Source of the DNA: Dyadobacter sp. MSC1_007
GTDB taxonomy: Bacteria; Bacteroidota; Bacteroidia; Cytophagales; Spirosomataceae
Direction: 5' to 3'
Length of the DNA: 64,000 nucleotides
NCBI RefSeq assembly: GCF_023667495.1
Contig: NZ_JAMOZL010000017.1
Location: forward strand, 1-64,000
In this document: in pieces, positions 12,589-32,009 of the stretch
Numbering within the stretch: the first letter of the stretch is position 1
Layout: each line of letters starts with the position of its first letter
The notes under the pieces: model-generated
The model's input: only the letters and a program-made list of their open reading frames with translations
Database searches by the model: none
What the model was told of the DNA's origin: nothing
Position numbers and translations under genes: made by a program

Positions 12589-14352
12589 TCATTTTTCCTG
12601 TCCCATAATCGCTTCTATTGCTGCAGAAAGATATACCATCGGCGCATTCCAGTTGATCGCGATCTCATTGGATGCGTAAGAACAGTCATTGTCGGTAAAA
12701 GACTCGTCGGCAAACTTGTTGGGATAACCCGCACATTTATCCTGCTGTGCCGGATTAGGCCCGCCCGACAATAATCCGGGAACTGGTTCTTCGATACCAT
12801 CCGCAATGGAAGGCCGGTGGTGCGGATGCATGACCCTTTTTGAGCCAAAGCCGGTCAGAAAGCAATAGCCGGTTGCATTACGGCCGAGCAGGTAGTCGAG
12901 GTTGCCAAGCGACGCGTCGCGGTATTTACGGTCTTTGGTGATACGATAGGCATATAGTAACGCAATACCCTGGTTGGCGGCGACAGAACTGCTGCCCCAG
13001 GCATAGTCCTTTGCTTCTTTGCCCATTACCGTGTTGTAGGGCTGTTTTTCAAGATCAGTAAGCAATGTCCCGGCATAATTCGTAACGGCCTGTTTCAGTG
13101 GATTCGTCAATTGTCCTTCTGATTTCAAATCCTCGCTAAACCGGAGCAGCGTGTAATATCCAAGCGTTTTAACTTGGCTCCATGTTGGCAAAACCATCGT
13201 TTGGGGAGATTCCAGGCCAAGGCCTTCGAGGTAGTCCTTTTTGCGGGTAAGCGCATACATTTCAGCTCCCGCCCATATCCATTCATCGCTGGCATCCCGG
13301 TCACCATAAGCACCGGTGACTATGTCCGGATCAAATTGTTTGTTGACCTCATTCTGGTTGTATAATATCTTCGGATTTTTCTTCGCCCATTCCCAACCCT
13401 TCACAGCAGCCGTCGTGCAGGAGTCGGCCAGACCGGGGAACTTGTTATCGAAACTTTTGAATATCCGCGCCGACTGCGCCATTACAGCCACAAAGTCGAG
13501 CGTTGCCGGCGTATTTTTCTGCACGACATAACGGGGATTTTTCGCCGCACCTGGCATGATCATCCCGTCGAAGCGCGGATTAGTCAGTTTGTGATAAACC
13601 CCGCCATCAGCCGGGTCCTGCATCGTTAGCATCCACCTTAAATTCCAGATTACTTCGTCGAGCAGATCGGGGACGCCATTATTGCTTTCGGGAATATTGG
13701 TATTGAAATTTTCAAAATATGCGGGGTAATCCTCATACAACGACAACAGTGTGCCCATTGTAATTCCGGAATTGACAATGTACTTATTATAATCCCCGGC
13801 ATCGTACCAGCCTTTTGGAGAGCTGATCACGGCATTCTCAGCGCGATTTTGAGAAACTGCCGAAGCGTGTATCAGGACTTTATCATCAGGGTGCCCAGCT
13901 GGCCTGGCCCATTTGCCTGCAAATTTTTCTGGTAGTTCAATGGAGGCCCGCTGGTAATAAAAGCCTTTCAGAGATGCTTCCGCCACTTCCCGATGTACTT
14001 GTGATGCTATCCGGAACGGGGCCGACCTGCCCAATCCCGGCACTTCAATAATGTAGTTACCAGCCTTTTTCACCCCTGAAAAATCCGCGATCTTCGTTAC
14101 CTTGCCCGAATGCTGACTGGTCCGCGAAGAACCCAGTTTTCCTTTGAAAACAATTTTGCCGGATTTAGCGTCCCTGACCTCGAAGGAGCTATGTTCATCA
14201 CCCGAAATTGCCGCTATTTTGGTGCCGCCGGGGTAAAATCCAATTTGATTAAGGTGTATTGCGCCGGATGGCGCCTGTGCGAAAGAAAGATTTGAACTGG
14301 CAGCGGCGAAAAGCCCCGCCAGTAGGAAGATGTTATTCAGGAGTGACTTCAT
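12589..14352 (-). CDS. GH9 family endoglucanase with N-terminal Ig-like domain
   Basis: This 587-residue secreted or periplasmic glycoside hydrolase is expected to cut beta-1,4-glucans by inversion. It has a signal peptide (1-25), an N-terminal cellulase Ig-like domain (about 28-116, ending EVPGLGRSAPFRIA) and a GH9 (alpha/alpha)6 barrel (about 120-585). The catalytic aspartates are in YDAGDYNKY (184-187), the substrate-binding HHRPS is at about 511-515, and the acid glutamate is in SNEIAINWNAP (Glu563). All key motifs are intact. There is no carbohydrate-binding module or T9SS tail, so it may stay periplasmic and act on imported oligosaccharides. Its exact specificity (cellulose, mixed-linkage glucan or xyloglucan) cannot be read from sequence. 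Confidence 0.9.
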   Translation of the reverse strand: MKSLLNNIFLLAGLFAAASSNLSFAQAPSGAIHLNQIGFYPGGTKIAAISGDEHSSFEVRDAKSGKIVFKGKLGSSRTSQHSGKVTKIADFSGVKKAGNYIIEVPGLGRSAPFRIASQVHREVAEASLKGFYYQRASIELPEKFAGKWARPAGHPDDKVLIHASAVSQNRAENAVISSPKGWYDAGDYNKYIVNSGITMGTLLSLYEDYPAYFENFNTNIPESNNGVPDLLDEVIWNLRWMLTMQDPADGGVYHKLTNPRFDGMIMPGAAKNPRYVVQKNTPATLDFVAVMAQSARIFKSFDNKFPGLADSCTTAAVKGWEWAKKNPKILYNQNEVNKQFDPDIVTGAYGDRDASDEWIWAGAEMYALTRKKDYLEGLGLESPQTMVLPTWSQVKTLGYYTLLRFSEDLKSEGQLTNPLKQAVTNYAGTLLTDLEKQPYNTVMGKEAKDYAWGSSSVAANQGIALLYAYRITKDRKYRDASLGNLDYLLGRNATGYCFLTGFGSKRVMHPHHRPSIADGIEEPVPGLLSGGPNPAQQDKCAGYPNKFADESFTDNDCSYASNEIAINWNAPMVYLSAAIEAIMGQEK

Positions 14353-14795: not shown

Positions 14796-14808
14796 CGTTT
14801 GTTCTTCC

Positions 14809-15918: not shown

Positions 15919-15919
15919 T

Positions 15920-16072
15920 TTACTTTTTGTTGAATAATTCTGCGGGAACAGGATTTCTTTTAAGAAGTGCCCTCATGTCCGCCGCTTTCTTTTCAAAAAA
16001 CTCATCATAGTTTGGCGGATAAGTTGCAGCCGTAGGGCTTCGCCTGGTTTTATTGATTTTGGTAACTGACAT
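15920..16072 (-). CDS. Small 50-residue protein downstream of a DUF6934 gene
   Basis: An ATG at 16072 starts an open frame of 50 codons. It is basic at the N-terminus (MSVTKINKTRRSPTAATYPP) and then has a likely helix (DEFFEKKAADMRALLKR) and the ending NPVPAELFNKK. It sits 37 nt after the DUF6934 gene on the same strand and stops one nucleotide short of the cupin stop. No family is recognised. Amphipathic composition, tight packing and co-direction support a real gene, possibly the small partner of a two-gene module. Confidence 0.6.
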   Translation of the reverse strand: MSVTKINKTRRSPTAATYPPNYDEFFEKKAADMRALLKRNPVPAELFNKK

Positions 16073-16109
16073 AGCTATATGTGTTTAGAAATCTCTCTAA
16101 TTTAGTTAT

Positions 16110-16589: not shown

Positions 16590-16611
16590 AGAGGCAGATT
16601 TCCGGATGGCA

Positions 16612-16644
16612 AAAAAATAGCCAGCGGAAAGCTGGCTATTTTTT
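16612..16644. terminator. Strong bidirectional terminator
   Basis: AAAAATAGCCAGC (16613-16625) and GCTGGCTATTTTT (16631-16643) form a 13-bp perfect stem with a 5-nt loop (GGAAA), flanked by A and T runs. It ends the minus-strand sugar operon just after the DUF6807 gene (stop at 16664). Confidence 0.9.
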
Positions 16645-16663
16645 CAATCTGCTATATTACAAA

Positions 16664-17710
16664 CTATTCCGTCTTCGCATATGCCGCGGCCAGATCATTG
16701 AGCGTAGCATCTTTCAAATGCTCGGAAGCAATTACCAGGCGGTAACGGAAGGTCGTCGATTCGCCTTTTTTGAGTTTAAAATTCAGCGTCTCTTTGCCGT
16801 CGCTCAGCGCTTTCATACCTAATGGGTTCACAGCAAACAATCCGTAACCGCGTGCATGCCAGTAAGCAGGATAGCCGACATTCTTCGGATGGTCGATCAT
16901 CGCTACACTGATATTCTCATCTTTGATCTTGCCAGTCAGGTTGCACCAAATGGCACGTTTACCCCAAACCGTTTCGCCTTCCACTCCATTGCTGTTGCGG
17001 TAGTTACCGGTAATGCCTTCATTGTTCATCACCGGAACCTTTGTAGCAATACCAGCGGCATCTGTAAAAATTTCGGGCTTATTCGAAGGAAGTTCCAGCT
17101 CGCGTGCCACACGGATCGCGAACATTCCGTCCTTTACATCGGGCATTGCAACTTCGTCGAGCATCGCAGTAAGCGTCGTCGAGCGATCGATAATGCGGGT
17201 GTCGCCTTTTCCGCTGAAAGTATACGTGGTCGTTTCCTTCATGGTAAGCGTCCCATTCTTATCAACCCAATCCGCTGTCACTTTCAATTCGCCTTTATCC
17301 TTTCCGCTTTTTACAGAAGTAATACCGGTGTGAATAATAGTACCGTAAGCACGCTTTTCGTGGTTTACTGCGTCCGAATTATTCCAGTAGTCGTTGCCAT
17401 TGACATCCTCATAGTTCAGCCAGACGCCCACGTGGTGCGGATGATCTACACGTTCGCCCGCACGCGGGTCCAGAGGCCAGCCGCGGGTGATGAGGGTACC
17501 TTTCGCAGTCATGACCGGGTAAAGCACCGCCTTCTTCAACGTCTTTTCCCCCGGATAATAGTAGGACGTAAAAGGTTTTCCGTCGATTTTGACTTCCACC
17601 TTCTTATCCTTGTCATTCTTAATGAGGTCTACTTTTTGCGCGTTTGCTGTTCCTGTCCATGCGGCCAGGGATATTGCAGCGAACGCTAAGCCTGTGTTTT
17701 TTAGATTCAC
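16664..17710 (-). CDS. DUF6807 (PmoA-like) exported protein
   Basis: This 348-residue protein carries a signal peptide (LAFAAISLAAWTGTANA) and the fold annotated as 'PmoA family' or DUF6807. The motif DHPHHVGVWLNYEDVNGNDY is characteristic. The name is misleading: no methane oxygenase activity is implied. These genes recur next to Gfo/Idh/MocA and DUF1080 genes in sugar loci of Bacteroidota and Planctomycetes, and their catalytic role is unsettled. The start codon is GTG (17710); no ATG fits the signal peptide. It is the last gene before a strong terminator and lies 30 nt after the oxidoreductase. Confidence 0.8.
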   Translation of the reverse strand: MNLKNTGLAFAAISLAAWTGTANAQKVDLIKNDKDKKVEVKIDGKPFTSYYYPGEKTLKKAVLYPVMTAKGTLITRGWPLDPRAGERVDHPHHVGVWLNYEDVNGNDYWNNSDAVNHEKRAYGTIIHTGITSVKSGKDKGELKVTADWVDKNGTLTMKETTTYTFSGKGDTRIIDRSTTLTAMLDEVAMPDVKDGMFAIRVARELELPSNKPEIFTDAAGIATKVPVMNNEGITGNYRNSNGVEGETVWGKRAIWCNLTGKIKDENISVAMIDHPKNVGYPAYWHARGYGLFAVNPLGMKALSDGKETLNFKLKKGESTTFRYRLVIASEHLKDATLNDLAAAYAKTE

Positions 17711-17740
17711 CTTGATCGTTCTTTAAAATGAATGCATGAT

Positions 17741-19081
17741 TTAACTCAGGACTATTTCCTTTTTCTTAGACTCCCAGCTCACCCGCTTACCTGTATGCAG
17801 CGCCTGCGTAGCCATGATGTTGGCCACCGAGTGGTTGAACCCAACCCGTGCCGGGGCATTCGTTTCCTTCCGGCTGCGGATACACTCCATCCAGTTGCGC
17901 ATGTGCAGTGAAGTCATCGGATCGGCACCGGTGTTGGCGTCGGTCGCGATTTTATCACCTGTTTTCAGCGACATTTCAGGCAGCAGATTAGCCTGCAATC
18001 CCATCGATTTAGCATCTTTTGCCTGCAATCCGCCTTCGGGAGTGATCTTGTTGGTATCCAGGTTGATCATCCCGCCATTCGAGTAATAGTATTCCTTCAC
18101 ACCGCCTGCTTCATTGTTGAAACGTGATGAGTAAATCACCTGGAAGCCTTTGCTCTTGTCGTCCGCAGGTCCGTATTCGAATGCAGCGCTGAAAGTATCG
18201 ACATTCGTACGACCATCTTTCCAGGTATAAATTCCACCATTGGCTACCACGTTACGCGGGGCATCCAGGCCGGAGAACCAGTGAACCGTGTCGATCTGGT
18301 GGGCCATCCATTGTCCCGGGATACCGGAAGAATATGGATAGAACAAACGGAATTCCAGGTAATAACGCGGGTTCCAATCTACTTTCGGACGGTTCATCAG
18401 GAAGCGGTCCCAGTCGGTATCTTCTTTGCGGATCTGAGAAACGAGTTCTTTACGTCTCCACCGGCCCGGTTGGTTTACATTCCAGGTCATTTCAACCGTG
18501 GTAATGTCTCCAAACTTGCCTGATTTGATATATTCATAAGCCGCCCAGTAATTGGGGGCGCTGCGGCGCTGCGAACCAACCTGTACAATTTGCTTAGAGC
18601 TTTCCACTGCTTTCAATGCGATTTTTGCATCTTCCAGCGTTTCTGCGAAAGGCTTTTCGACATACACGTCGCGACCGCTTTTTACCGCTTCCGCGCAATG
18701 CAGTGCGTGTTGAAAATCTGCCGTAGATATGATCACCGCATCAACGTCCTTGCGTGCCAGCAATTCCTCGTTGTTGCGCGCTTTAATGAATTCACTTGCG
18801 GCGTAGCTTTTCCCTTTCATGAAAGCTTCCGCCTCGTCACGGCGTCGGTTCCAGAGATCCGAAACACCCATGAACTCAAAGTTCAATTCTTTGGCGTGAT
18901 CTGAAAAAGAAGGTGCCAGCGAGCTGCGGAAACGATCTGAAAAACCAATGATACCTACTCTGACGCGGTCATTTGCGCCTAAGATGCGACGGTAGCTGGC
19001 GGCCCCGAAAGCATTGGCACCTACTGCGATACCGGCGGAAGCCAGTGTTGCATTTTTAAGAAAATCCCTTCTACTGGTCAT
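17741..19081 (-). CDS. Gfo/Idh/MocA family oxidoreductase with twin-arginine leader
   Basis: This 446-residue NAD(P)-dependent sugar dehydrogenase-like enzyme has a Tat-type leader (TSRRDFLKNATLASAGIAVG). The Rossmann domain contains VRVGIIGFSDR, where the usual third glycine of GxGxxG is replaced. The family signature VYVEKPFAETLEDAK holds the conserved EKP lysine. The C-terminal domain includes PGQWMAHQIDTVHWFSGLD, resembling other exported family members. Tat export allows the cofactor to be loaded before transport, as in glucose-fructose oxidoreductase. In this operon it may oxidise a glycoside at C3 or reduce a keto-sugar; the substrate is inference. Confidence 0.85.
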   Translation of the reverse strand: MTSRRDFLKNATLASAGIAVGANAFGAASYRRILGANDRVRVGIIGFSDRFRSSLAPSFSDHAKELNFEFMGVSDLWNRRRDEAEAFMKGKSYAASEFIKARNNEELLARKDVDAVIISTADFQHALHCAEAVKSGRDVYVEKPFAETLEDAKIALKAVESSKQIVQVGSQRRSAPNYWAAYEYIKSGKFGDITTVEMTWNVNQPGRWRRKELVSQIRKEDTDWDRFLMNRPKVDWNPRYYLEFRLFYPYSSGIPGQWMAHQIDTVHWFSGLDAPRNVVANGGIYTWKDGRTNVDTFSAAFEYGPADDKSKGFQVIYSSRFNNEAGGVKEYYYSNGGMINLDTNKITPEGGLQAKDAKSMGLQANLLPEMSLKTGDKIATDANTGADPMTSLHMRNWMECIRSRKETNAPARVGFNHSVANIMATQALHTGKRVSWESKKKEIVLS

Positions 19082-19206
19082 GATATTGGATTGTATAAAA
19101 GTTGATTTTTGATTGATTTAAACCGGACTCTGATCGGCAATCAGTTGTAAATAACCGATGCCCGTTTATCTACTGTATTTTTTGACCTTTTTTCGGCAAG
19201 GCACTT

Positions 19207-20574
19207 CTATTTGATCTCCTTCACTTTCAAACTGCGGTAAAACACATTATCGCCGTGATCCTGCAAAAGAAGATAACCCTGGGGAGACATTCCGAAGCCT
19301 TCGAACTTAGCGAATTTGGAAGCTGCCACAAACTCCTTAAACTGAGGCGAGCCCCGCACATATTCGACCACTTTATAGCCGTTCAGGAAATGCTGAACGG
19401 TACCGTCTTTCTGCACCACAATGCGTCCCTGGTTCCATTCACCGATTTTCTTAACAGCATTCCTTGGCCTGTCGGCAGGTATCACATCATAAAAAGATGC
19501 GATAGTACGGTTACCGTTTTTGCCCATTTTAGCATCCGGATGCTTCTCATCGTCGAGTACCTGGTATTCACAACCAATACCCGATTTACCACTGGAATTG
19601 AATTTCTGATCTACAAAATACTTCACGCCACTGTTTGCGCCCTCGGTCAATTTGAAATCGAATTCAAACTCGAATGCAGGGCCGTACAGCTTGCGCGTTA
19701 TGATATCGTTGCCCGTTTCGGAACCGTCCGATTTAGAGATCATGATCGTGCCGTCCTGGTAGCTCCATCTTTTTGAAGGGAAATCCGATCCGCCATAAGA
19801 ACGCCACTGATCGGCTGATTTGCCATCATATAACAATGACCAGCCCTGAGATTTTTCAGCGGCATCCAGCGAGTTAGGGATCAGGTTCACGATCCGGATA
19901 TTGCTTGCCGGGCTTGGTTTGAGATTAGTAGTCTTAATGCGTACGTTCTTCCAGCTCACCTGCGTGCCTTCCAAATCTTTGTTGTTACCAATGGCGTGGA
20001 CCTGCAAGCAGATGAACCCGCTTGGCGTCATGTCGTCGATCACATGCGCTACCGGCACACCGTTCAGGAAAGTGCGTATAGAACTGCCGATCGCCTCGAT
20101 GCGGTATTTATTCCAGGCTTCGCGTTTGAATGCTTTCTTACCTTCGGGATTCAGGTCCAGCGGGTAAAGCCAGCCTCTACGCGCCTCGTCGTAGATACCG
20201 GCAGAATATGCGCGGTCGCTGGGGTCGATCTCTACCTGATAGCCATGAACACGGCCGTTCTGATAGTCAGGCTTGGACAAGCTGCGGATCTGGATCCCTG
20301 AATTGAGCTTGTTATCAACTTTTACTTCGCATTCGAAGATAAAATCTCCATAGTCTTTTTCTGTCGTCAGGAACGAATTGGGCGTCCCTGTCACGGAAGT
20401 TCCGACGATCGCGCCGTCTTTCACTTCATATTTAGCCTGACCGTTGAGCTGCTTCCAGCCAGACAGGTCCTTTCCGTTGAACAGGTCCTGCCATCCGTCT
20501 TTGGATCGCTGGGCATGGGCACCAATGGCGGTAACCAGAAATAGACAAAAGAGCGGTAATCTGAGAATTTTCAT
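19207..20574 (-). CDS. Tandem DUF1080 (3-keto-glycoside hydrolase/lyase-like) protein
   Basis: This 455-residue exported protein has two DUF1080 concanavalin-like domains in a row. The first spans about 25-210 (WQDLFNGKDLSGWKQLNG, SGIQIRSLSKPDYQNGRVHG, YQVEIDPSD). The second spans about 240-455 (WSLLYDGKSADQWRSYGG, SGVKYFVDQKFN, GCEYQVLDDEKHPDAKM). The start is the ATG at 20574, which opens the signal peptide (RLPLFCLFLVTAIGAHA); an upstream frame extension lacks one. DUF1080 members in Bacteroides cleave 3-keto-glycosides made by Gfo/Idh/MocA oxidoreductases. Most are single-domain, so the fusion is notable. The neighbouring oxidoreductase fits that pathway. Confidence 0.85.
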   Translation of the reverse strand: MKILRLPLFCLFLVTAIGAHAQRSKDGWQDLFNGKDLSGWKQLNGQAKYEVKDGAIVGTSVTGTPNSFLTTEKDYGDFIFECEVKVDNKLNSGIQIRSLSKPDYQNGRVHGYQVEIDPSDRAYSAGIYDEARRGWLYPLDLNPEGKKAFKREAWNKYRIEAIGSSIRTFLNGVPVAHVIDDMTPSGFICLQVHAIGNNKDLEGTQVSWKNVRIKTTNLKPSPASNIRIVNLIPNSLDAAEKSQGWSLLYDGKSADQWRSYGGSDFPSKRWSYQDGTIMISKSDGSETGNDIITRKLYGPAFEFEFDFKLTEGANSGVKYFVDQKFNSSGKSGIGCEYQVLDDEKHPDAKMGKNGNRTIASFYDVIPADRPRNAVKKIGEWNQGRIVVQKDGTVQHFLNGYKVVEYVRGSPQFKEFVAASKFAKFEGFGMSPQGYLLLQDHGDNVFYRSLKVKEIK

Positions 20575-20611
20575 TGCGTTGAATACTGAATTTATGAATG
20601 ACCGAAGTAAA

Positions 20612-20680
20612 TGTAAGGGTTTCGCATCCGACATCGACTTATTACTAACATAACGATGTATTAATACAAATACCCTTACA
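20612..20680. promoter_or_regulatory. Palindromic operator-like cluster upstream of the DUF1080 gene
   Basis: TGTATTAATACA (20657-20668) is a perfect 12-bp palindrome. It lies within an outer 9-bp inverted repeat, TGTAAGGGT (20612-20620) and ACCCTTACA (20672-20680). The cluster is 38-106 bp upstream of the DUF1080 ATG, in a 161-bp gap inside the operon. It may mark an internal regulated promoter for the last three genes. No regulator is encoded nearby. Confidence 0.4.
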
Positions 20681-20735
20681 AATCCAATTAAGGCCACTCA
20701 CAAATTCTGCATTCGCAGATTAGACGTTGTTTCTT

Positions 20736-21632
20736 CTAAATGGGGTATTTCAAAGTCTCCGTAATGTATTTTTTATTGATCTCAGCGCAGATCAGCGGCG
20801 ATTTGTCCGGATCGGGCACGCCATCCAGTTCCACAACTGCCCAGCCTTTAAACTTGATCTTGCTTAACGAACTGAATACTGCCGGCACGTCCACACGTCC
20901 CTGTCCCAGCTCTACGAATTTGTAGCCGTTTTTGGTTTCAGCCGGTTTAGTATCCTTTAAATGCAGCGAATGGATGATATCCTTGTATTTAACAACAGCA
21001 TCCTGCGGTTCGCCCCCACCCTGCTTGTAATGGGCAATATCAAGCAATAACTTAATATAACGAGGGTCCATTGCCTGTACAATCACGTCCACTTCTTCGG
21101 GTGTTTCGCCCAACTGGTTCATATGGTTGTGGTATACCGCCTGCACGCCATGATCAGCCGTTTGCTTCCCGATTTCGTTCATTACCTGCGCCAGTTTTTT
21201 CAATTCCTCGACGGACGGAGCGCGGTCTTTCGGGCGAAGGCTGTTCGTCAATTGCAATGCACTACCGCCCAGCGCTTTTACGAAACTTGCATGCGCCACG
21301 TGCGTATCCACCGTGCTCTCGAATTTCGCCGGGTCGATTTCCACATTGCCGCTCGAAAACATGGCAAGTGTGAGATTGTGCTTTGTTAATGCGTCCTTCA
21401 ATTCGGACACCTTGTTACGGTAAGGGCCAAATGTATTGGCACGAAGCTGTATTCCTTTGAATCCCAGGCCTGCGAGATCCGCAATGGCTTGTTCGTCTTT
21501 TCCGGCCCAGGTAATGGCCGAATAGCCGATTTTGATATCTCCTTTTTTAATCGCGGCTTCGAGTAAGCCACCTCCCATTAGCGTCGCGGCAACTGCCATT
21601 GACGAGTTCTGCAAAAAGTTGCGTCTGTTCAT
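20736..21632 (-). CDS. Exported sugar phosphate isomerase/epimerase-like TIM barrel
   Basis: This 298-residue xylose-isomerase-like TIM barrel has a Tat-type leader (MNRRNFLQNSSMAVAATLMG). Likely metal ligands sit in AVYHNHMNQLGETPEEVD, KLLLDIAHYKQGGGEP, IHSLHLKDTKP and AVVELDGVPDPDKSP. Members of this family act on free or keto-sugars despite the 'phosphate' in the family name. Related proteins occur beside DUF1080 and Gfo/Idh/MocA genes, where they are proposed to isomerise keto-sugar products. It is separated from the upstream SusD by a terminator-like hairpin. Confidence 0.85.
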   Translation of the reverse strand: MNRRNFLQNSSMAVAATLMGGGLLEAAIKKGDIKIGYSAITWAGKDEQAIADLAGLGFKGIQLRANTFGPYRNKVSELKDALTKHNLTLAMFSSGNVEIDPAKFESTVDTHVAHASFVKALGGSALQLTNSLRPKDRAPSVEELKKLAQVMNEIGKQTADHGVQAVYHNHMNQLGETPEEVDVIVQAMDPRYIKLLLDIAHYKQGGGEPQDAVVKYKDIIHSLHLKDTKPAETKNGYKFVELGQGRVDVPAVFSSLSKIKFKGWAVVELDGVPDPDKSPLICAEINKKYITETLKYPI

Positions 21633-21679
21633 TTCAGGTTTGGATTTAGTAATGAAGAACCATTGAGTTGTAGACGAAG

Positions 21680-21714
21680 TAAAACAACAATGACCCGCTA
21701 TCCACGGGTCATTG
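21680..21714 (-). terminator. Terminator or attenuator after SusD
   Basis: CAATGACCCG (21688-21697) and CGGGTCATTG (21705-21714) form a perfect 10-bp stem with a 7-nt loop. On the minus strand it is followed by a T-rich run. It lies 9 nt after the SusD stop, so partial read-through may set the ratio of transporter to downstream enzymes. Confidence 0.75.
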
Positions 21715-21722
21715 CCTTCAAA

Positions 21723-23552
21723 TTATTTAGGGATCTCTGTTAATGGAGGCACATTTTTATCATACCCCGCATATCCTTTATTCTGATTGATCCTTGCCTG
21801 CGTATTCCCATCGATCGCGGACTGCGGAATGGGCCACAACACGTGATAAGGGCTCATGGTATACTCGTCCGCATGTCGGGTTTGTACGCCTTTATTGTAA
21901 AAGTCGTTTTTCTCCATCACCCGGTCATAAAAGTAATTTTCATCCGAAAACTTGGCCAGGCTATATGTTTTTCCATTTGGCGCAGGTTTACCGGTTTGCG
22001 CGAAAATATAGGCAATCCGTGTCAGCTCGGTTTTACGTGGCTCTTCGAAATAAAGTTCTCTTGCCCGCTCATCGAGAATGGTCCCGATATTGATCTTACC
22101 CGCCGCGAGTGGTGCGCAATTAGCGCGGGCGCGGACTACATTCACATCCTCGGCAGCTTTGGCGAGGTTACCTTTCCAGGCGTACGCTTCCGCACGCAAG
22201 AGGTAAGTTTCAGCCAGGCGGAAAACATACCAGTCGGTATTACCTCCCTGAGGTTGTACACGCAACGGATCTTCGATGAAGAATTTATAGTTCGGCCAGT
22301 CAAACCAGCAGCGGATGGTATCTATCGTGAGTACGACACCTTCTGCATTTTTAAGTTGAAGGTTTTTCCCATAATAGGTGTCCGTTTCCTTGATCGCCGG
22401 ATTGTTGTAAAGAATATCCTCCATGCGCGTCCAGTTGCCTGGTGCGTGCCGCAGGTCGTTCTTGTCGTCCCAGATCTGGTTCTGTGAATAATCGGTCGGG
22501 CGCAAACGGCCGATCCCGCGACCGTATTTCACCACCTGATCGATCTCAATGCCATACGTATCGATCGTTCCCCGGTTCCCGTTCGGCGTGTTGATATTGT
22601 TAAACCAAAGCGGCACACCATTTCGCATCGTAAGTATACCACCCTCCACATTCCCTTCGATATTCAGCCGGTCGATCACCATCATCAGGCCTTCGGTATT
22701 CACGGGCAGCGATTTGTTTTGCGGGCGGTGCAAATCCCAGATCACATTTCGTGCCGGGTCGTTGGCATTTACCCCGAAACGTGACGTCATCAGCTTGTGC
22801 GTTCCACCGTCGATAACATTCGTAGCCGACTTGATAGCGTCATCAAACAGACCCAACGCAAGGTTCACTTTGGTAAGCAAATGGCTCACCGATCCTTTAT
22901 TAACAGTTCCTTTGTCAGTCACGGCGGGCACCCATTGTTCCGCAAATTCGAGGTCTTGCTTCATTTTTTTCAGGATAACCTCTCTTTTCGTCGTCTGAAA
23001 ATCCAGCTTCGGACCATTTACCTCCTCCAACAACAAAGGAACATCCCCAAACTGCTGGGTAAGGCGGTAGTAACGTGCCGCCCGGTGAAAATAAGCCGCC
23101 CCGAGTAACTCGTTCTTTTCCTGTTCATTTTTATAGGTGGGTAAATCGATCCGCGATATCGCCGTATTCGCGTACTTGATCCCCTTGTAACCTTCAAGCC
23201 AGTACCAGCCGATCTTGTTGTAATCGGTATGGTTCAATTGAGCGTCCGGGGTAATGAGGAGGTTCAAATTCTGCGCCGGGCCGGATTTGTCGGTCGTACC
23301 TTCCACTGCGATATCCGAAAAAATGGATTCGGTGATCATCGGCATGGCGTCGCCGTACCACTCCATACGCAAACTGCGCTCACAGGCAACCAGTGTCGCT
23401 TTCAGCCCAGCGATATCCTTGAAAGTGAGATCAGGTTCGTAAAAAGACAATGGCTCAGGTTTCAGCCAGGTTTCCTTACAACTGACCAGGGTTATGCCCG
23501 CCGCCAGAAAAGCCAGGGGGAGTATTTTGGTAAATCTATGAATAGTAGTCAT
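21723..23552 (-). CDS. RagB/SusD family outer-membrane lipoprotein
   Basis: This 609-residue surface glycan- or nutrient-binding lipoprotein is the partner of the SusC gene 18 nt upstream. It has a signal sequence ending in a lipobox (LVSC, Cys26) and the SusD TPR-like alpha-helical domain. The family C-terminal pattern is [10 protein letters not shown] then [21 protein letters not shown] and [13 protein letters not shown]. It forms the lid of the SusC/SusD importer. No substrate can be named from sequence; the linked enzymes suggest a glycoside processed by oxidation. Confidence 0.93.
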
Positions 23553-23570
23553 TGCTTCGGGTTTTGAAGG

Positions 23571-26500
23571 TTATAGTGTGATATCAAGGCCCAATGTGTA
23601 GATCCGAGGACTTGGGACAGAGGTGGCTATGCTTGCATTAGTAGTGCCATTGGTGCCATTTTCAGGATCCCAGAAGTCCCATTTAGGAGCCCAGAAGCCG
23701 ATATTTCTCACATTAGCGTAAATCCTGAGATTCCGGATGGCTGCTTTTTCAGTCATTGTCTTCGGTAAGGTGTAGGCAACCGACACGTTTTCGAAGCGGA
23801 CAAACGATTTGCTTCTGTAAACGCTGTAACCAGTTGCCGATCCTTCGCTCGAATACAGCCGTGCCCATTCATTGGAGCGGTTTCCCTCGGTCCAGTAGGG
23901 CAAAACATAGGAACTTGTGCGGTCCACGAAGCCGTCACGGTTTTTCATCTGGTTGAATGTTCCTTTTTGTCCCCAATAGGAATAGATCATGCACGAAATG
24001 TCAAAGCTTTTGAAAAGCTTGAACTCGTTGCGGAACGTCCATCTGAAACGCGGTGAAGTATAGCCCAGAAATTCTTTATCGTCATTTGTAAACTTCCCAT
24101 CGTTATTGACATCCTTCAATTTAAAGTCTCCGGGCTTCACGCCGTATTTCGCAGCTTCTGCCTCTTCCTCCTTTTGCCAAACACCCAGTATGCGGTAGTT
24201 CCATATTTCATCCAGCGCATGACCGATAAACCAGCGGTTTGTAATGTCATTGGCCTCTTTCCGGCCTGTTACGTTTCCTGCACCATCTTTGATATCCACG
24301 TAGTTGCCATACAAATGCACGATCTTGTTTCTGTTCAGCTGAAAGTTGAATGTGCTGCGCCAGGAAAAGTTCTCGCGCCGCATATTGTTGGAGTTAATGC
24401 TGATCTCCAACCCCTTGTTCTGAACTTCACCCAGATTGTCCCACACATTATCGAAACCAAGCACATTAGGCAGTGCCCGTTTTACAAGCAGGTCTTTGGT
24501 AGTTGATTTGTAAAATTCGATACTTCCGTCTATCACATTATTAAAGAGAGCGAAGTCTAACCCGACATTCAATGCATTGGTTTTCTCCCATTTGAGGTTT
24601 GGATTAGCCATGCGGCTTGCATATAGCTGGCTGACCTGATACACGGTACCATCCGGCTTTACGTGCAGATATTTACCACTTGCCAGATCGGCCAGGGCGT
24701 CATAACGGGGAATATCCCGGTTGCCATTGTTGCCATACGAAACCCTGAGCTTGCCGTAGCTTAGCCATTTATTGTTCATAAAAGGCTCATCCGTAAACAC
24801 CCAGCCAATGGCTGCCGAGGAGAACAAAGCACGCGGGTTTTTCTGGCCAAATGCCGAATAGCCATCCCGGCGACTCGAAAGTGTTAGCATATATTTCTCT
24901 TTGAACGAATAGAAAAGCCTCGCCATTAGAGCGTCAGCGGTGCTGGTTTGATCGTCGGTATAGACGATTGGAAGCCCGCCGGCCTGAATGTTATGGTAGC
25001 CTAGGACATCGGTTGGTGCAAAGCCTTTGTTCGAAATGGTATCACGCCAGCTTCTGAACCGCTCCGCATTAGCCAGGAATGTCAGATCGATATTGTGTTT
25101 TTGATTGATGGTTTTACTCCATTTGAGAATATTATCGACCTGCCAGTTGAATACTGTCGAGTCTTTCCGTGACGCCCGTCCGCCCTCGGCTGCCCATTCC
25201 GCGTGTTTCGACGATTCTGCATTGTAGCGGTGCGTATAATCGAAGCGCGGTGTGAAATTGAGCTGGTAGGTGATCCCCAGCGGCAGGCTGACTTTGGCGA
25301 AAATCACAGAGTTCAGTGTCATTGCACCCTGGTCGCGGCTTATAAAGCTAGGGGCATAATAAGGATGGTTTCCCCCGCTTGCTTCACCATTGGGCCGCCA
25401 TGAGTATTTGCCATTGGCATCAAATTCCGATCCCCAGGGCGACAGGACGCGGGCGAGGTCATAGTTGACCGGCACCTGGCTTTCGTCCCTTTTGGCGAAT
25501 TGCGTATTCATCCCGACGCTCAGGAAGTTGTTTACTTTTCCTTCCAGGTTCAGACGGGCCCTTACGGTGCTATATTGATCTCCGACCACAATCCCTTCAT
25601 TCTTGAGATAACCCAGCGACATATAATAGGAAATACGGTCGTTCCGCCCCGACAGGCTTACTGTGTGGTCTTGCCGGAAGCCCTTCTGGAAAACCTTGCT
25701 ATACCAGTCCACGCTTTTGCCGTCCTTGTAATTCTGGATTTCTGCAGGTTGCATTCCCAGGCGTTGCAGCCACACTGTCGTCGGATCGCCTTTTGAGCCG
25801 TCGTAGGAAAGCCACTCATCGAGGGTAACACCCGAGGGGAGTTTCGAAGGATCGGTAAATCGCGCGGGCTGGGCGGTTGCATTGATATTCCGCATAACCT
25901 CCTGCCGCCAGGTAATGAAGCCTTCCGGACTCAGCACCGGCTGGTTTCTGGCTACTTCGGCAAATCCAAAGTTGCTGTTGATATTGATGGTCGGCTTGCC
26001 TTCCTTACCCTTTTTAGTGGTGATCAGGATGACCCCACTCGCAGCTTTGGCCCCGAAAACGGCAGACGAGCTCGCGTCTTTCAGCACATCGATGGTTTCG
26101 ATATCATTGGGATTGATGTCTTCCAGGCCGCCGTAATAGATCGTCCCGTCCAGCACGATCAGCGGGCTCGATCCTGCGTTAATGGAGTTTTGGCCGCGAA
26201 CCGACACATTTCCTCCTCCCTTCGCGGAAGTAGAAAAACCAACGTTCATACCCGGAACATTCCCTCTCAGGACGTCCTGTACGGATTGCGGGTTTTCGTT
26301 TTCGAGCCGGGTTGCATTGACTTGCGAAACGGCGCCTGTCAGGTCGCGCTTTTTGAGCGTACCATAGCCAATCACGACCACTTCGTTCAGGGTTTTCTGG
26401 TCGGAAACGAGTACAATATCGAGCATCGATGCATTGCCCGCGTCGCGTTCCTGGGTCACATAACCCACCGCCGAAAACACGATGGTAGCGACATTGCCCG

Positions 26501-26759
26501 GGATTGCGAGAGTGTACTTCCCGTTGGCGTCGGTGGTTGTCCCGTGGGCACTTCCTTTAATAACTACGGTAACACCCGGAAGCGGGGCATTTCCTTCTGC
26601 GGATAACACTGTGCCTGTGATGATCCTGTCGGTCACGGCTGCATAACCCGGCCCGTTCAAATGGCTTGCCATGGCCGGTGGCGGATACAGCAATGCGCAT
26701 AGCGTACAGGCCCGTGTCACGTGCAGCAAAGAGGTGGTAAATCCTTTGGCGATGTGCAT
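23571..26759 (-). CDS. SusC/RagA family TonB-linked outer-membrane transporter
   Basis: This 1062-residue TonB-dependent porin has an exported N-terminus and a carboxypeptidase-regulatory-like domain (about 45-115, ITGTVLSAEGNAPLPGVTVV). The SusC TonB-box-like stretch is NEVVVIGYGTLKKRDLTGAV, followed by a plug (RGQNSINAGSSPLIVLDG) and a 22-strand barrel ending in RIYTLGLDITL. There is no STN domain and no linked ECF sigma/FecR, so regulation differs from that of the two modules further right. It heads the operon running down to 16664. Confidence 0.94.
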   Translation of the reverse strand: MHIAKGFTTSLLHVTRACTLCALLYPPPAMASHLNGPGYAAVTDRIITGTVLSAEGNAPLPGVTVVIKGSAHGTTTDANGKYTLAIPGNVATIVFSAVGYVTQERDAGNASMLDIVLVSDQKTLNEVVVIGYGTLKKRDLTGAVSQVNATRLENENPQSVQDVLRGNVPGMNVGFSTSAKGGGNVSVRGQNSINAGSSPLIVLDGTIYYGGLEDINPNDIETIDVLKDASSSAVFGAKAASGVILITTKKGKEGKPTININSNFGFAEVARNQPVLSPEGFITWRQEVMRNINATAQPARFTDPSKLPSGVTLDEWLSYDGSKGDPTTVWLQRLGMQPAEIQNYKDGKSVDWYSKVFQKGFRQDHTVSLSGRNDRISYYMSLGYLKNEGIVVGDQYSTVRARLNLEGKVNNFLSVGMNTQFAKRDESQVPVNYDLARVLSPWGSEFDANGKYSWRPNGEASGGNHPYYAPSFISRDQGAMTLNSVIFAKVSLPLGITYQLNFTPRFDYTHRYNAESSKHAEWAAEGGRASRKDSTVFNWQVDNILKWSKTINQKHNIDLTFLANAERFRSWRDTISNKGFAPTDVLGYHNIQAGGLPIVYTDDQTSTADALMARLFYSFKEKYMLTLSSRRDGYSAFGQKNPRALFSSAAIGWVFTDEPFMNNKWLSYGKLRVSYGNNGNRDIPRYDALADLASGKYLHVKPDGTVYQVSQLYASRMANPNLKWEKTNALNVGLDFALFNNVIDGSIEFYKSTTKDLLVKRALPNVLGFDNVWDNLGEVQNKGLEISINSNNMRRENFSWRSTFNFQLNRNKIVHLYGNYVDIKDGAGNVTGRKEANDITNRWFIGHALDEIWNYRILGVWQKEEEAEAAKYGVKPGDFKLKDVNNDGKFTNDDKEFLGYTSPRFRWTFRNEFKLFKSFDISCMIYSYWGQKGTFNQMKNRDGFVDRTSSYVLPYWTEGNRSNEWARLYSSEGSATGYSVYRSKSFVRFENVSVAYTLPKTMTEKAAIRNLRIYANVRNIGFWAPKWDFWDPENGTNGTTNASIATSVPSPRIYTLGLDITL

Positions 26760-26814
26760 AGGTAAGGTGGTTTAAAATGATGTTTAGATGAAAGATAGCA
26801 TCCTGATATCATCG

Positions 26815-26840
26815 AATCCAGCCCCTTACCTGTCTGGATT
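26815..26840. promoter_or_regulatory. Inverted repeat upstream of SusC
   Basis: AATCCAG (26815-26821) and CTGGATT (26834-26840) form a 7-bp perfect dyad with a 12-nt spacer, 56-81 nt upstream of the SusC start. It lies between that start and the terminator of the preceding operon, so it is a plausible operator. Confidence 0.35.
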
Positions 26841-26924
26841 AACCCTAGTTTTTATACGGAGAATCTCACTGATTTAACGGTATCTTTTTGTTTTTCCGCT
26901 TTTTGTCGGTAGCTCTGTTGGACG

Positions 26925-26965
26925 AAAAAAAGCCGGTCGGATGCTCGCGCATCCGACCGGCTTTC
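26925..26965 (-). terminator. Strong terminator after the second SusC/SusD operon
   Basis: AGCCGGTCGGATGC (26931-26944) and GCATCCGACCGGCT (26949-26962) form a perfect 14-bp stem with a TCGC loop. On the minus strand it is followed by a run of T (A6 at 26925-26930 on plus). It cleanly separates the two SusC/SusD operons. Confidence 0.92.
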
Positions 26966-26990
26966 TCAACTAAACTATACTTTCTTCGGA

Positions 26991-28658
26991 TCAGTACCCA
27001 GTGTTCTGAGGGAAAACCGATTTGCCGTCCGTCGTCTTCGCACTTCTGTCGATCTGTGTCTGAGGAATAGGTCTCACAGCGTGGAATGCCTGGATGCTAG
27101 CGGCCTGAGGGTTGTATTTTTTCACCCTGTCGACCAATACTCCCCAACGTTTCAAATCCACCCAGCGGGTTTGCTCACCGGCAAGCTCCCGGGCGCGCTC
27201 CTCCATGATCGTTTCCATAGTCACATCCTTCACAGGAAGCACCATGGCTTCTTTTTTGCCTGGCCATCCGGCACGGAACCTGACCGCATTCAATGCGGCA
27301 GCAGCATCCACTTTATTTCCCGATTGGAACAAAGCTTCGGCAAGCATCAGGTACACATCTGCCAGACGTACCGCGAAATAATCACGGCTACCTGCTTCAT
27401 AGGTCATATCAGGGCGCTTTGTATCAAAGAACTTCTGCAAAGTCGGGAACAATGCTTCCGAATATTTGCTTGGTACGAGCACCTGGTATTTCTTTTTGGC
27501 ACGCTCCTCTTTGGTCATCTCGAAACCGGGGATAAATATCGCCGTGTCACCTGCCGCAAATGTTACCTTGGTTTTCGAATCGTCGAATGATGCCGCATTG
27601 TAAGTTCCGGGGTTATTGGAAAGCCAGGTATCACGGAAGGTCTTTTTGTAGCGAGAGTCGTTCGTACGATCAGCAAAAACCGTTTTAATCAGGTATTCGG
27701 TAGGTCTAAGCCTTTTGAATGGCCGACCCCAATAGGTATCCCTTTTCATACCAGGCTGCACATCATATTGCATCCCGAAATAAAGGTGAAGGCTGTTTCC
27801 GGTACCATTAGTCAATGCATCGGTCGTATACTGTACGGCAAACACCACCTCGCTGTTGATCTGGTTGTTCTCGTCGAACACACTTGCGAAATCGTCCAGC
27901 AGCTTGTAGCCATATTTGGTAGTTACGTTCGTGCAAAGTTCTGCCGCTTTTGTAAAGTCGTCCGCTGCTTTTTCGCTGGAATATGCTTTGGCAAGATAAA
28001 CCTTTGCAAGCATTGCTTCCGCTGCCGGCTTAGTTGCCCGTCCATAATCGTTCGACTGTGCTTTTGCTTCCAGATCGGCAACCGCCTCGCTCAAATCCTT
28101 GATAATGGCTGCATACATTTCAGCATCGGTAGCGCGCTTTGTTTCCTTCGTTGGAAGCACCGTTTCAGTCAATCGCAGGTCGACACCGCCATATTGCTGA
28201 TGCAGCAGGTAGTAGTAATGTCCACGCAGGAACTTAACCTCTGCGATTCGCAACTTCTTGGTCGCATCGGTCACACCCACCACATTGGGAGCCCTGTCGA
28301 TCACCGCATTACAAGTATTGATCCCCCTGTAAAGTTCGTCCCAAGTAGTCGCCAGATAGTCCACTGTCGGGTTCAACTGACCGTCATAGTAATGAAATCC
28401 TTTGTAACCTCCATCGGCACCAGTCGCATAAATGTCGGTCCCGTACTCGGTCAAGGTCAACCCCTGCTGGGTACCATAATAGAACCGCAGCGGCGTATAG
28501 GCAGCTTTAACGGCATCCTCAAAGCCCTTCGGCGTATTAAGATAATCGTTACCAACCCCTGAAATGATTTCCTCATCGAGGGCGTCCTTACACCCCTGCC
28601 CGGCCAGCATCATCGCTGCCATTCCGCATAATACTATCGATTTTCTTATATTCTTCAT
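26991..28658 (-). CDS. RagB/SusD family outer-membrane lipoprotein
   Basis: This 555-residue SusD homologue is co-transcribed with the SusC gene 36 nt upstream. The signal sequence ends at Cys23 (AGQGC), an imperfect lipobox. Typical blocks are NTPKGFEDAVKAAYTPLRFY near the N-terminus, LRIAEVKFLRGHYYYLLHQQ, the C-terminal ALNAVRFRAGWPG, EERARELAGEQTRWVDLKRW and VRPIPQTQIDRS. It should be a cell-surface substrate-binding subunit. No enzyme is linked in this operon, so the substrate is unknown. Confidence 0.93.
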   Translation of the reverse strand: MKNIRKSIVLCGMAAMMLAGQGCKDALDEEIISGVGNDYLNTPKGFEDAVKAAYTPLRFYYGTQQGLTLTEYGTDIYATGADGGYKGFHYYDGQLNPTVDYLATTWDELYRGINTCNAVIDRAPNVVGVTDATKKLRIAEVKFLRGHYYYLLHQQYGGVDLRLTETVLPTKETKRATDAEMYAAIIKDLSEAVADLEAKAQSNDYGRATKPAAEAMLAKVYLAKAYSSEKAADDFTKAAELCTNVTTKYGYKLLDDFASVFDENNQINSEVVFAVQYTTDALTNGTGNSLHLYFGMQYDVQPGMKRDTYWGRPFKRLRPTEYLIKTVFADRTNDSRYKKTFRDTWLSNNPGTYNAASFDDSKTKVTFAAGDTAIFIPGFEMTKEERAKKKYQVLVPSKYSEALFPTLQKFFDTKRPDMTYEAGSRDYFAVRLADVYLMLAEALFQSGNKVDAAAALNAVRFRAGWPGKKEAMVLPVKDVTMETIMEERARELAGEQTRWVDLKRWGVLVDRVKKYNPQAASIQAFHAVRPIPQTQIDRSAKTTDGKSVFPQNTGY

Positions 28659-28694
28659 TGTTAAATATCTTTTATAGGTATTAAACCTGGGCTT

Positions 28695-31600
28695 TTAGAA
28701 TTTTGCGTTCAATCCGAATGTGATCACCATCGTAGCAGGAGTTACACCCGTTCCACCAGCTGCAAGACCGGTACTTTCAGGGTCAACGCCGTTGTATTTG
28801 GTACGATACTTCGCCCAGATAACTGGCTGCTGAATGCTGGAATACAATCTGAGCGACTCCATTCCAAGTCTTTTGGACAACTCGGGTGTAAATGTATAAC
28901 CAACGTTGATGTTTCTCAACTTCACGAATGTTCCGTCGAAATAAGTCAATGTGCTTCCGTAAACAGGGAATTCCTGGTTGCTTTTCGGACGCGGGAATTC
29001 GTTGGTCGGATTGTTCGGTGTCCAGTAATCCACCTTCATTTGCTGATAGCGACCTGCCAGTGCATTGTTGTTTCTGTGGAACTCGCTGCGGATCAGGTTA
29101 CCTACGCGGGCAAAGAAGAAGAACGACAGGTCAAAACCCTTGAAACTGAAACGGTTGGTGATACCACCACTGAAGTCAGGAACATCAGAACCGATGATTT
29201 CGCGGTCGGATGCATTGATCTTGCCATCACCATTCACATCTTTAAGTTTGATCTGACCAACTTCGCTGGCAAAGGATTTCGCGGCGTCCGCTTCATTGGT
29301 TTGCCAGATACCCACTTTTCTATAATCGTAAACTGTGCTGAGTGCACGGCCGATGAACCAGCCATTACCTACGTCATCCACTTTTCCGTTGTACAGCGAC
29401 AGGATCGCCTCTGTGTTCTTGGTAAATGTAAAGTCAGTCGTCCATTTAAAGCTACTCGGAGAATCGACATTGGTAGTAGTAAAGCCTAACTCGATACCAC
29501 GGTTGCGGGTTTCACCGACGTTACGTGTAACAGCATTGAAGCCGATCGATCCGGGCAGCTGATCCGACAAAAGCAAATCAGTTGTATTGGTCTGATAAAA
29601 TTCGAGTGAACCTTGTACCCGTCCGCGAAGGAAGCTAAAATCCAAGCCGACGTTAGCCGTGGCGGATGATTCCCAGTGCAAATCCGCATTCCCGATCGTA
29701 CCGGGACGGTAACCATAGGCAGGTGATGCGTTCCAGGCGTAGGCCGTTCTTCCAAGGAAGGCTTGCGTTTGATAAGGCGCCAGACCTGTGTTACCCACTT
29801 TACCCCAGCCTGCACGAATCTTCAACAGGTCGACCCAGGAAACGCTTTTCAAAAAAGTCTCATTGCCAAGATTCCAACCTACTGCTACACCAGGGAAGTT
29901 ACCATATTTGTTGTTTTCCCCGAAACGGCTGGACCCGTCGCGACGCATCGTTAATGTCAAGAGATATTTGTCGTTGTAATCGTAGTTGATACGGCCCATA
30001 TAAGAATTAATAGCCCATTCAACCACTCCGCTGATCGGAGAAAATACCGTCGTTGCCGCACCGAGGTTATAGAATGATTGCGATTCAACCGGCACACCCT
30101 GCACCGACGCACCGAATCCCTCTGCACGGTCCCGCTGCATGGAGTGCAGCAAGGTCACATTCAGGTTATGTTTTCCACCGAACGTTTTAGTGTAATTGAC
30201 AATGTTTTCCAAAGTCCAGTTGAAGCCGAATGCGCTGGTAGCGCTCGCCTGTGCGTCACCGCCTTTCCGGGCGTTGGTTTGCGCTCCAATAAACCTTCCG
30301 TACCGGGTAATGGTAAAGTCCGGCCCGAAGTTGACACGGTATTTCAAACCCGGAAGAATGGTAAATTCTGTATAAAGACTATTGAAAATACGGTAGCGTT
30401 TCATCTCATCGACCTGGGCGCCTGGAACCAATTCCGCCAACGGATTAGTAAGCAAAGCATCGTTGGTAGGTGAGAAAATCAGCTTGCCGTTGTCATCGTA
30501 CGGTACAGCCAGAGGGTTCTGGTTGATAGTCATTCCGTAGGTATTCAGGTTCTCACCATTACGGGTGCTGGTCATCGAATAAGACGATAAACCGACCTTG
30601 AACCAACTGTTGACATTGTGATCGATGTTGGCACGCAGCGAAAGCCTTTTAAAATTGGCTTCCTTCACAATTCCCTTATCCTGGAAAAAGCCACCAGAGA
30701 TAAAAAATTGCGTCCTGTCGCTCCCGCCCTGGATACCGACCGAGTGGTTCTGCATTACCCCGCTTTTCAGAACGAGGTCCTGCCAGTCTGTGCTCGTGTT
30801 ATTGGCGAGGCCTTTGGCCACGTTAGGGTCACCGCCCAATACTGCTATCTTTCCATCGGCAACCGGGTCTACGGTTCCAGTTGGTACCACGTTACCTGCT
30901 GCATCTTTGTATCCACCAGTCGCCCGGTATGCTTCACGTACGTACTCGGCAAACTCTTGTCCGTTAAACAGCTCGACTTTATCTAATGCTTTCGAAACAC
31001 CTACATATCCGTCGTAGCTGACAGTTGTTTTACCTTTCTGCCCGCCTCTTTTTGTACTTACGATGATAACACCGTTCGCGCCGCGTGCACCGTAGATCGC
31101 GGTGGCAGTTGCGTCTTTCAGAACTTCCATCGACTGGATGTCGCTGGGGTTCATGTCTTCATAACCTCCTGCCAGCGGGATACCGTCCACTACATACAAT
31201 GGATCGTTACCGGCGTTGAATGAACGTCGTCCGCGGATCAGTATCCTGGGCACCGTGCCAGGTTTCGAACCCGATTGCGTCACATCCACCCCGGCGGCAC
31301 GTCCTTGCAATGCCTGGCCAAGGTTCGTAATAGGCATTTCATTGATTTCTTTTGCGCCAACAGACGAAATCGCACCTGTCAACTGGCTTTTCTTTTGCGT
31401 ACCATAACCCACCACGACCACCTCGGTCAGCGTTTTAAGGTCGCTGCTCAATGCTATATCAATAACACTTTTAGTCCCTACCGGAATTTCCTGCGTTACA
31501 AAACCCACCGCTGAAAACACCAGTACGGCGTTATCATCGGGAATGCTGATCTTGAAAACTCCGTCCACATCTGTGTTTGTACCGGTTTTGCTTCCTTTTA

Positions 31601-31820: not shown

Positions 31821-32009
31821 TAATAGTTCACCATAACTTACTTGACGAATACTGGATAGAGAGTCCCTTACAAAAAAGTCATACAAATTCTCGGTTAATT
31901 ACAAGACAACATACAGTTACTTAGCATCGAACTGTAACTATTCCGATGAAACTTATTATTTGAAAGGGGCTTAGGGCTGATGTAATTTTTTCGACTTCTG
32001 CAAATAGTA

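Follow-up and report, generated by a model that had tools for sequence, protein, structure and literature searches.

Gene content, importers and transcription

The window, a 64,000-nucleotide stretch of Dyadobacter sp. MSC1_007 (contig NZ_JAMOZL010000017.1, positions 1 to 64,000), contains a minus-strand block of genes that probably serves to import glycosides and cleave them by oxidation. The block is divided into two parts: two SusC/SusD importer pairs in a row, designated inner (21723-26759) and outer (26991-31886), followed by genes for a TIM barrel protein, a tandem DUF1080 protein, a Gfo/Idh/MocA oxidoreductase and a DUF6807 protein (Table 1). Open reading frames and Pfam matches place the six genes from the inner SusC to DUF6807 where an earlier first-pass annotation had put them. 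The boundary that it drew at 26759 is too narrow, as the outer pair lies upstream on the same strand. Both pair types are linked to genes for keto-sugar chemistry, as explained below, and the locus is therefore better read as 16664-31886.

Table 1. Features of the locus and its surroundings, in window coordinates
Feature	Coordinates	Strand	Evidence
Outer SusC	28695..31886	-	Plug and CarbopepD domains; beyond the first-pass span
Outer SusD	26991..28658	-	PF07980; beyond the first-pass span
Hairpin between outer and inner SusC/SusD pairs	26926..26967	-	fold
Inner SusC-like transporter	23571..26759	-	TIGR04056, 744.5 bits
Inner SusD-like lipoprotein	21723..23552	-	PF07980
Hairpin between inner SusD and enzyme genes, possible attenuator or terminator	21686..21716	-	fold and shuffles
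AP_endonuc_2 TIM barrel with RRxF leader, candidate 3-keto-glycoside lyase, hydratase or epimerase	20736..21632	-	PF01261; AtOGE positions conserved; fold
Tandem DUF1080 protein (3-keto-disaccharide hydrolase family)	19207..20697, start probably ~20574	-	two PF06439 stretches; 4jqt match
Gfo/Idh/MocA oxidoreductase, Tat-type, candidate glycoside dehydrogenase	17741..19081	-	PF01408, 61.8 bits; TIGR01409
DUF6807 protein, signal-like leader by eye	16664..17710	-	PF14100, 279.1 bits
Terminator-like hairpin closing the enzyme block	16611..16645	-	fold and shuffles
GH9 with CelD_N, conserved downstream neighbour	12589..14352	-	PF00759, 286.5 bits

The inner SusC and the inner SusD (153.7 bits) both score above the cut-offs of their models, which gives the locus the SusC/SusD signature of a polysaccharide utilization locus (PUL). 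In 36 Dyadobacter loci, the outer type lies directly upstream of the enzymes in 17 and the inner pair in 14, with neither arrangement in view in five; an outer SusD is visible beyond the inner pair in 11 of those 14. The comparison also covered 25 loci from 23 other genera of the family, one place per genome, which were chosen by hand and not at random (one, L152, was picked for its long frame). Here, 13 loci have the outer type (52–77% identical) next to the enzyme core or to DUF6807 on its own, and the remaining 12 show no SusC. The first-pass choice of the inner pair as the cognate importer is not upheld by these counts, and the outer pair appears to be the more widespread importer of the enzyme genes.

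The inner type (47–58% identical) adjoins a different DUF6807–oxidoreductase cluster in two loci, L114 and L117, where it accompanies an oxidoreductase and a second DUF6807 subfamily. In L114, the oxidoreductase belongs to PF16490, SDR and UxuA genes lie downstream, and LacI and ThuA genes lie upstream on the opposite strand; L117 has a TRAP transporter gene near the cluster. These neighbours suggest a uronate-linked variant.

The first-pass annotation also stressed the lack of a glycoside hydrolase (GH). This is correct for the six genes; however, a GH9 gene lies 2.3 kb downstream, and a GH9 gene is in view downstream in 22 of the 36 Dyadobacter loci. Its putative link to the pathway is one of genomic neighbourhood. 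A second GH9 gene is found at 46483-49455. The importers and enzymes could be mere neighbours, with the SusC/SusD pairs feeding the GH9 enzymes and the enzyme block standing alone, a view in keeping with the two GH9 genes, the variable presence of the inner pair and the hairpins that separate SusD from the enzymes. We consider it improbable, as the outer type sits beside the enzyme core or DUF6807 in other genera and the inner type beside another DUF6807–oxidoreductase cluster in L114 and L117.

Of the hairpins, the closing one (16645-16611) has 15 pairs and folds at -20.6 kcal/mol (z score -6.2, with 0 of 200 shuffles as good), so that the hairpin originally placed at 16612-16644 is real; the consensus scan did not list it. 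The hairpin between the inner SusD and the TIM barrel (21716-21686) has 13 pairs and a T-rich tail (z score -5.8). As it separates the importer from the enzymes, transcription of SusC through DUF6807 as one unit cannot be taken for granted, and uneven expression of importer and enzymes is allowed. The hairpin between the two importer pairs (26967-26926) has a 19-pair stem when 26925-26990 is folded (-35.5 kcal/mol, z score -7.5). A stem of at least 10 pairs, with G-T allowed, occurs no more than 160 bases past SusD in 25 of the 31 Dyadobacter loci where SusD is the match preceding the TIM barrel or DUF1080, a raw count made without a shuffle control.

The enzyme core

The order DUF1080–oxidoreductase–DUF6807, here called the core, is kept in 35 of the 36 Dyadobacter loci; the remaining locus is truncated at a contig end. 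All of the closest named loci come from Dyadobacter, with DUF6807 up to 91–93% identical. Of the 36 loci, 25 show the TIM barrel, 24 of them in strict order ahead of the core. Among the 25 loci from other genera, 10 retain the core order. Thirteen genomes among the fetched family loci lack an oxidoreductase directly adjoining DUF6807 (in G004 and G018 it lies ~6 kb off), and each of the 13 has one orthologue (limit 1e-100) that is 58–77% identical, with a DUF1080 gene within its 1.5 kb flanks in 7. The first-pass annotation had proposed to give up its reading if related genomes did not conserve the cluster; as the gene set is conserved in these loci, the reading survives that comparison.

Small departures from the common order were also seen. 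Two loci, L132 and L152, end an otherwise identical gene order with tandem DUF6807 genes followed by GH9. In Dyadobacter soli (L073), DUF1080 is split over two open frames, which may represent a frameshift or an assembly error.

Export motifs differ between the four proteins. The oxidoreductase scores 20.9 bits with the twin-arginine model TIGR01409, above the cut-off of 16.7, and has RRxF near the start in 35 of 36 Dyadobacter frames, the remaining one being cut by a contig end. The TIM barrel, for which a twin-arginine leader was likewise claimed, has RRxF in 25 of 25 frames but no listed match to TIGR01409. The motif is found in 0 of 40 DUF1080 and 0 of 36 DUF6807 frames of these loci. A TatC gene is present in the genome. 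The DUF1080 and DUF6807 proteins are putatively exported, judging by eye from their leaders; for DUF1080, whose frame opens with GTG at 20697, the first start with a signal-like leader is the ATG of residue 42.

The oxidoreductase is a Gfo/Idh/MocA protein by PF01408, where the cut-off is 24 bits. Its best NCBIfam model is the BT_2158-type glycoside 3-dehydrogenase (NF058561), which it matches with 87.5 bits over residues 2-300, under the cut-off of 750 bits. Three genes elsewhere in the genome are closer BT_2158 relatives (460–496 bits), none above this cut-off. Among solved structures, the dehydrogenases 8tdh and 8tdf are its best matches (E value 3e-15).

The DUF1080 protein matches PF06439, a family that Pfam names '3-keto-disaccharide hydrolase', in two stretches totalling 274.8 bits (cut-off 26.8). 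It aligns with the solved tandem protein 4jqt over both domains (429 residues, E value 3e-153). This structure has the same two-domain layout and is named only as a putative glycosyl hydrolase. For the second half, matches include the single-domain proteins 8tda and 8rr2. By family, the protein is a candidate for 3-keto-glycoside cleavage.

The TIM barrel was first labelled an isomerase, a name that has been set aside, since no isomerase model reaches its cut-off. When aligned to 8bvk, whose numbering fits that of the O-glycoside eliminase AtOGE (PMC10628242), five of five positions are kept. The AtOGE metal ligands H132, D163, H189 and E233 correspond to H168, D198, H224 and E268, and its catalytic H134 corresponds to H170 (full-protein numbering, hand-counted on the alignment). 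With these positions kept, a lyase, hydratase or epimerase is as likely as an isomerase. Such sites occur beyond eliminases and do not single them out, so that 3-keto-O-glucoside elimination is a candidate reaction among others.

The predicted fold leads to a similar view. It matches the 3-keto-beta-glucopyranoside-1,2-lyases AL1 and BT1 (Z 22.5–22.8, root-mean-square deviation (rmsd) 2.6–2.7, 236–237 residues aligned) at the same level as IolE, allulose 3-epimerases and the 3-keto-glucoside 4-epimerase YcjR (Z 21.3–23.9 for the whole group), and other TIM barrels in the list reach Z 24.2. Epimerases, isomerases, dehydratases and lyases thus stand a few Z units apart. The model is of middling confidence (mean predicted local distance difference test score (pLDDT) 73.0, with five models ranging from 73.0 to 40.8), which makes this ranking weak evidence. 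A keto-sugar role of some kind is well supported for the protein.

A rival explanation would place the set in cyclitol (inositol-like) catabolism, with an IolG-like inositol dehydrogenase and an IolE-like inosose dehydratase that perhaps free and break an inositol glycoside. IolE is the TIM barrel's best NCBIfam model, as detailed below, and the IolE structure 3cny is its best solved sequence match (fold Z 23.9, rmsd 2.7, 249 aligned), while IolG is the second-best model for the oxidoreductase, at 70 bits. Both scores fall far under their cut-offs (290 for IolE, 355 for IolG), and the TIM barrel is the part that can be missing from view in Dyadobacter loci where the core stays together. Neither DUF1080 nor DUF6807 is known to belong to the inositol route, and we regard this explanation as quite unlikely.

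DUF6807 beside keto-sugar genes

DUF6807 passes its gathering cut-off (27 bits) by a wide span and occurs in 142 of the 150 family genomes sampled and in 23 of 198 sampled Bacteroidota genomes, including our own. In this phylum sample, with our own genome excluded, an oxidoreductase of the window type lies no more than 400 bp from DUF6807 at 19 of 47 places, as compared to 1 of 51 control frames (Fisher p 1.3e-6), which were drawn from 28 phylum-sample loci and lie at least 4 kb from DUF6807. Within 3.5 kb, an oxidoreductase is found at 29 of the 47 places, and either an oxidoreductase or DUF1080 at 32. The oxidoreductase, DUF1080 and TIM barrel labels in the sample and controls come from profiles grown from the window proteins and not from Pfam. 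The matches are not independent, as 7 of the 47 come from one genome, G311, and 9 from another, G320; counted by genome, at least one adjacent case is seen in 15 of 22. The arrangement is also present in an acidobacterium, Granulicella, where the oxidoreductase gene and the DUF6807 gene have an 8-base overlap and are preceded by a gene annotated as a carboxypeptidase-like regulatory domain protein.

Further support for the linkage came from single-frame fusions. DUF6807 is fused to DUF1080 in L109 and to ThuA in L120, the latter adjoining an alpha-L-rhamnosidase gene. A third fusion, DUF6807–DUF7133–HEAT–cytochrome c, is found in L149 and in our own genome (L146), where contig C13 carries a 1306-residue frame (L146:1621-5538, minus strand) that combines DUF6807, TIGR02604 (DUF7133), HEAT_2 and the heme domain TIGR02603. 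Linkage and fusions together place DUF6807 next to keto-sugar chemistry. DUF6807 frames similar in size to the L146 fusion are present in G031, G268, G316 and G342, with domains scanned in G316. A 754-residue DUF6807 frame in G284, which overlaps long frames on both strands, was not counted as a fusion, and the 692-residue frame of G328 (L150) proved to be DUF6807 alone.

A partial parallel exists in the verrucomicrobial Lac161 cosmid, which restored lactose use in Sinorhizobium meliloti, according to the portions of the report consulted (PMC5342196). Here, ORF9 is a PF14100 protein, and ORF7 of the same putative operon is a TIGR02604/HEAT/cytochrome c protein, unlike known glycoside hydrolases, that hydrolysed lactose once purified. 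These two protein types are the ones fused in L146. ORF10 (DUF377) alone also hydrolysed lactose, and as ORF7 and ORF10 are both active, DUF6807 is not required to explain lactose use (PMC5342196). The cosmid is therefore a parallel by analogy and not proof.

The DUF6807 model (mean pLDDT 89.5, from a 29-sequence alignment) is a mutarotase-like supersandwich, and its top solved matches are supersandwich proteins. These run from the PL26 exo-rhamnogalacturonan lyase 5xqg (Z 18.4, rmsd 3.0, 240 aligned) through glycosidases to the galactose mutarotase GalM 4bze, an aldose 1-epimerase (Z 16.3, rmsd 4.0, 242 aligned); no solved sequence relative was found at E values up to 1. The modelled fold would fit a mutarotase, a lyase or a binding domain alike. 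In 105 non-independent sequences, R199, W254 and N276 are conserved at 100% where aligned, H91 at 99%, H89 at 92%, D106 at 90%, H273 at 89% and H92 at 87%. These numbers are one lower than in the full protein, as the reference (16664-17707) omits the start Met. The conserved residues look like an active site.

The supersandwich fold also serves as a non-catalytic domain in many glycosidases. DUF6807 could accordingly be a domain that binds sugar or otherwise assists in the oxidative pathway, and glycosidases with a supersandwich domain do make up much of its fold list. Set against this are the near-invariant residues H91, H89, D106, R199, W254 and N276 and the fact that DUF6807 in the window is a whole, stand-alone protein, so that an accessory part seems unlikely. 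Somewhat less doubtful, and still on the unlikely side, is a speculative proposal that DUF6807 is a new carbohydrate enzyme class acting directly on keto-glycosides, in which a Gfo/Idh/MocA or heme-type dehydrogenase plus DUF6807 would be a minimal two-part 'oxidise, then cleave' glycosidase. If this were true, the Lac161 operon, where a PF14100 gene neighbours one for a heme-type dehydrogenase, would represent the same machine in a second form.

In the accessible text of papers mentioning DUF6807, PF14100 or PmoA family protein, no DUF6807 assay was found. Going by those portions, one paper cites DUF6807 as an example of DUF numbering and another uses PF14100 as a model for the methane oxygenase PmoA; the Granulicella record likewise annotates DUF6807 as 'PmoA family protein'. 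No paper was found that treats 'PmoA family protein' together with an oxidoreductase. The keto-sugar linkage gives DUF6807 a testable job and argues against PF14100 as a marker of methane oxidation.

A probable pathway of oxidative cleavage

The best explanation, with a probability of about two in three, is that 16664-31886 is a two-importer, PUL-type locus for periplasmic oxidative glycoside cleavage, with DUF6807 acting on a keto intermediate. It is favoured by the naming of PF06439 after 3-keto-disaccharide hydrolysis, by the occurrence of 3-keto-glycoside lyases among TIM barrels of this kind and by the conservation of the gene set. The oxidative (3-keto) cleavage of the first-pass annotation is thus retained as the best reading of the genes, while its boundary, importer and isomerase label have been replaced and the internal hairpin and the GH9 gene added to the picture.

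We infer the reactions, the C3 position, the cofactor cycle and the substrate as follows. The SusC/SusD pairs would import a small glycoside. The Tat-exported oxidoreductase, with its own NAD(P), would oxidise a ring hydroxyl to a ketone, at C3 by analogy. This ketone would acidify the C2 hydrogen, and the metal-dependent TIM barrel and/or the DUF1080 protein could then expel the aglycone by elimination and add water to give a free 3-keto sugar. The oxidoreductase may re-reduce this sugar, thereby closing the redox cycle. DUF6807 would work on a keto intermediate, and its role would most likely be that of a supersandwich-fold mutarotase, hydratase or eliminase.

Several observations weigh against this explanation. 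The oxidoreductase is a distant relative of BT_2158 by its score and not a member of that family. The TIM barrel's top NCBIfam score is for myo-inosose dehydratase IolE (TIGR04379, 104.1 bits), a family whose cut-off it does not reach, and this protein is not in view in 11 of the 36 Dyadobacter loci, one of which is cut short. The core order is lacking in 15 of the 25 loci from other genera. In the phylum sample, an oxidoreductase is absent from the 400 bp around DUF6807 at 28 of 47 places, and at 15 neither an oxidoreductase nor DUF1080 lies within 3.5 kb. Moreover, 2 of 8 family genomes without DUF6807 contain an oxidoreductase orthologue (limit 1e-40). Both of these are incomplete (63% and 86%), and the orthologue is found in 0 of 4 DUF6807-less family genomes of good quality (completeness 90% or more, contamination 5% or less), with G007 having only a 32% identical relative. 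Finally, the hairpins break up the gene block, and the Bacteroidetes-type promoter pattern TTTG-TANNTTTG has no strict match on the minus strand of 12001-32000. Loose matches there number two, at 16127 and at 19331, the latter within DUF1080 and ~220 bases upstream of the oxidoreductase start.

The proposed pathway would be of a known kind. Bacteroides thetaiotaomicron BT2156-BT2160, a 3-keto pathway for disaccharides and glucosinolates, likewise pairs a periplasmic glycoside 3-dehydrogenase (BT2158) with a DUF1080 protein (BT2157), in the sections consulted of PMC11300592, PMC9007349 and PMC11501099. According to the last of these, as far as its available text goes, BT2157 and BT2158 deletions caused no growth defect on raffinose-family sugars (PMC11501099). 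Judging by PDB titles, the same organism has a TIM-barrel 3-keto-beta-glucopyranoside-1,2-lyase, comparable to the TIM barrel here. Unlike BT2156-BT2160, the Dyadobacter locus has a distant oxidoreductase, a tandem DUF1080, a DUF6807 gene and two SusC/SusD pairs.

In Agrobacterium tumefaciens, the O-glycoside eliminase operon (AtOGE, AtHYD) encodes the same His/Asp/His/Glu site plus catalytic His as the window TIM barrel. It also holds a Gfo-type oxidoreductase, there proposed to be a reductase of 3-keto-glucose, whereas oxidation is by a flavoenzyme; DUF1080, DUF6807 and SusC/SusD are not mentioned for the operon in the portions of the report consulted (PMC10628242). Of two such putative Agrobacterium isomerases described there, one is an eliminase and the other, on preliminary evidence, a hydratase (PMC10628242). 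The lactose pathway of Caulobacter likewise begins with periplasmic oxidation, followed by a DUF1080 protein as its authors propose, but uses the membrane-bound LacABC in place of a Tat-exported Gfo/Idh/MocA enzyme, in the part of the source that was available (PMC9007349).

What appears to set the Dyadobacter locus apart, by comparison of genes, is a separate oxidoreductase branch, a tandem DUF1080, variable importers and a conserved DUF6807 partner. The new element is DUF6807 tied to keto-sugar genes. As oxidation-first cleavage escapes the usual searches for glycoside hydrolases, genome-based predictions of sugar use can overlook such loci.

Several minor features of the surroundings complete the description. 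No direct repeats of 40 bases or more were found in 16000-32500, and a long antisense frame at 16856-17689 on the plus strand was judged spurious. Between DUF6807 and the downstream GH9 gene lie a Dabb-domain gene and a DUF6934 gene (16110-16589), the latter present in part of the Dyadobacter loci only. On the other side, the region 32316-45714 contains two more SusD genes, each adjoining a large SusC-like gene, and, on the same strand, a BT_3987-like protein and a FecR/sigma factor pair. The genome as a whole has 25 PF06439 and 44 PF01408 matches, a large stock of keto-sugar-type genes.

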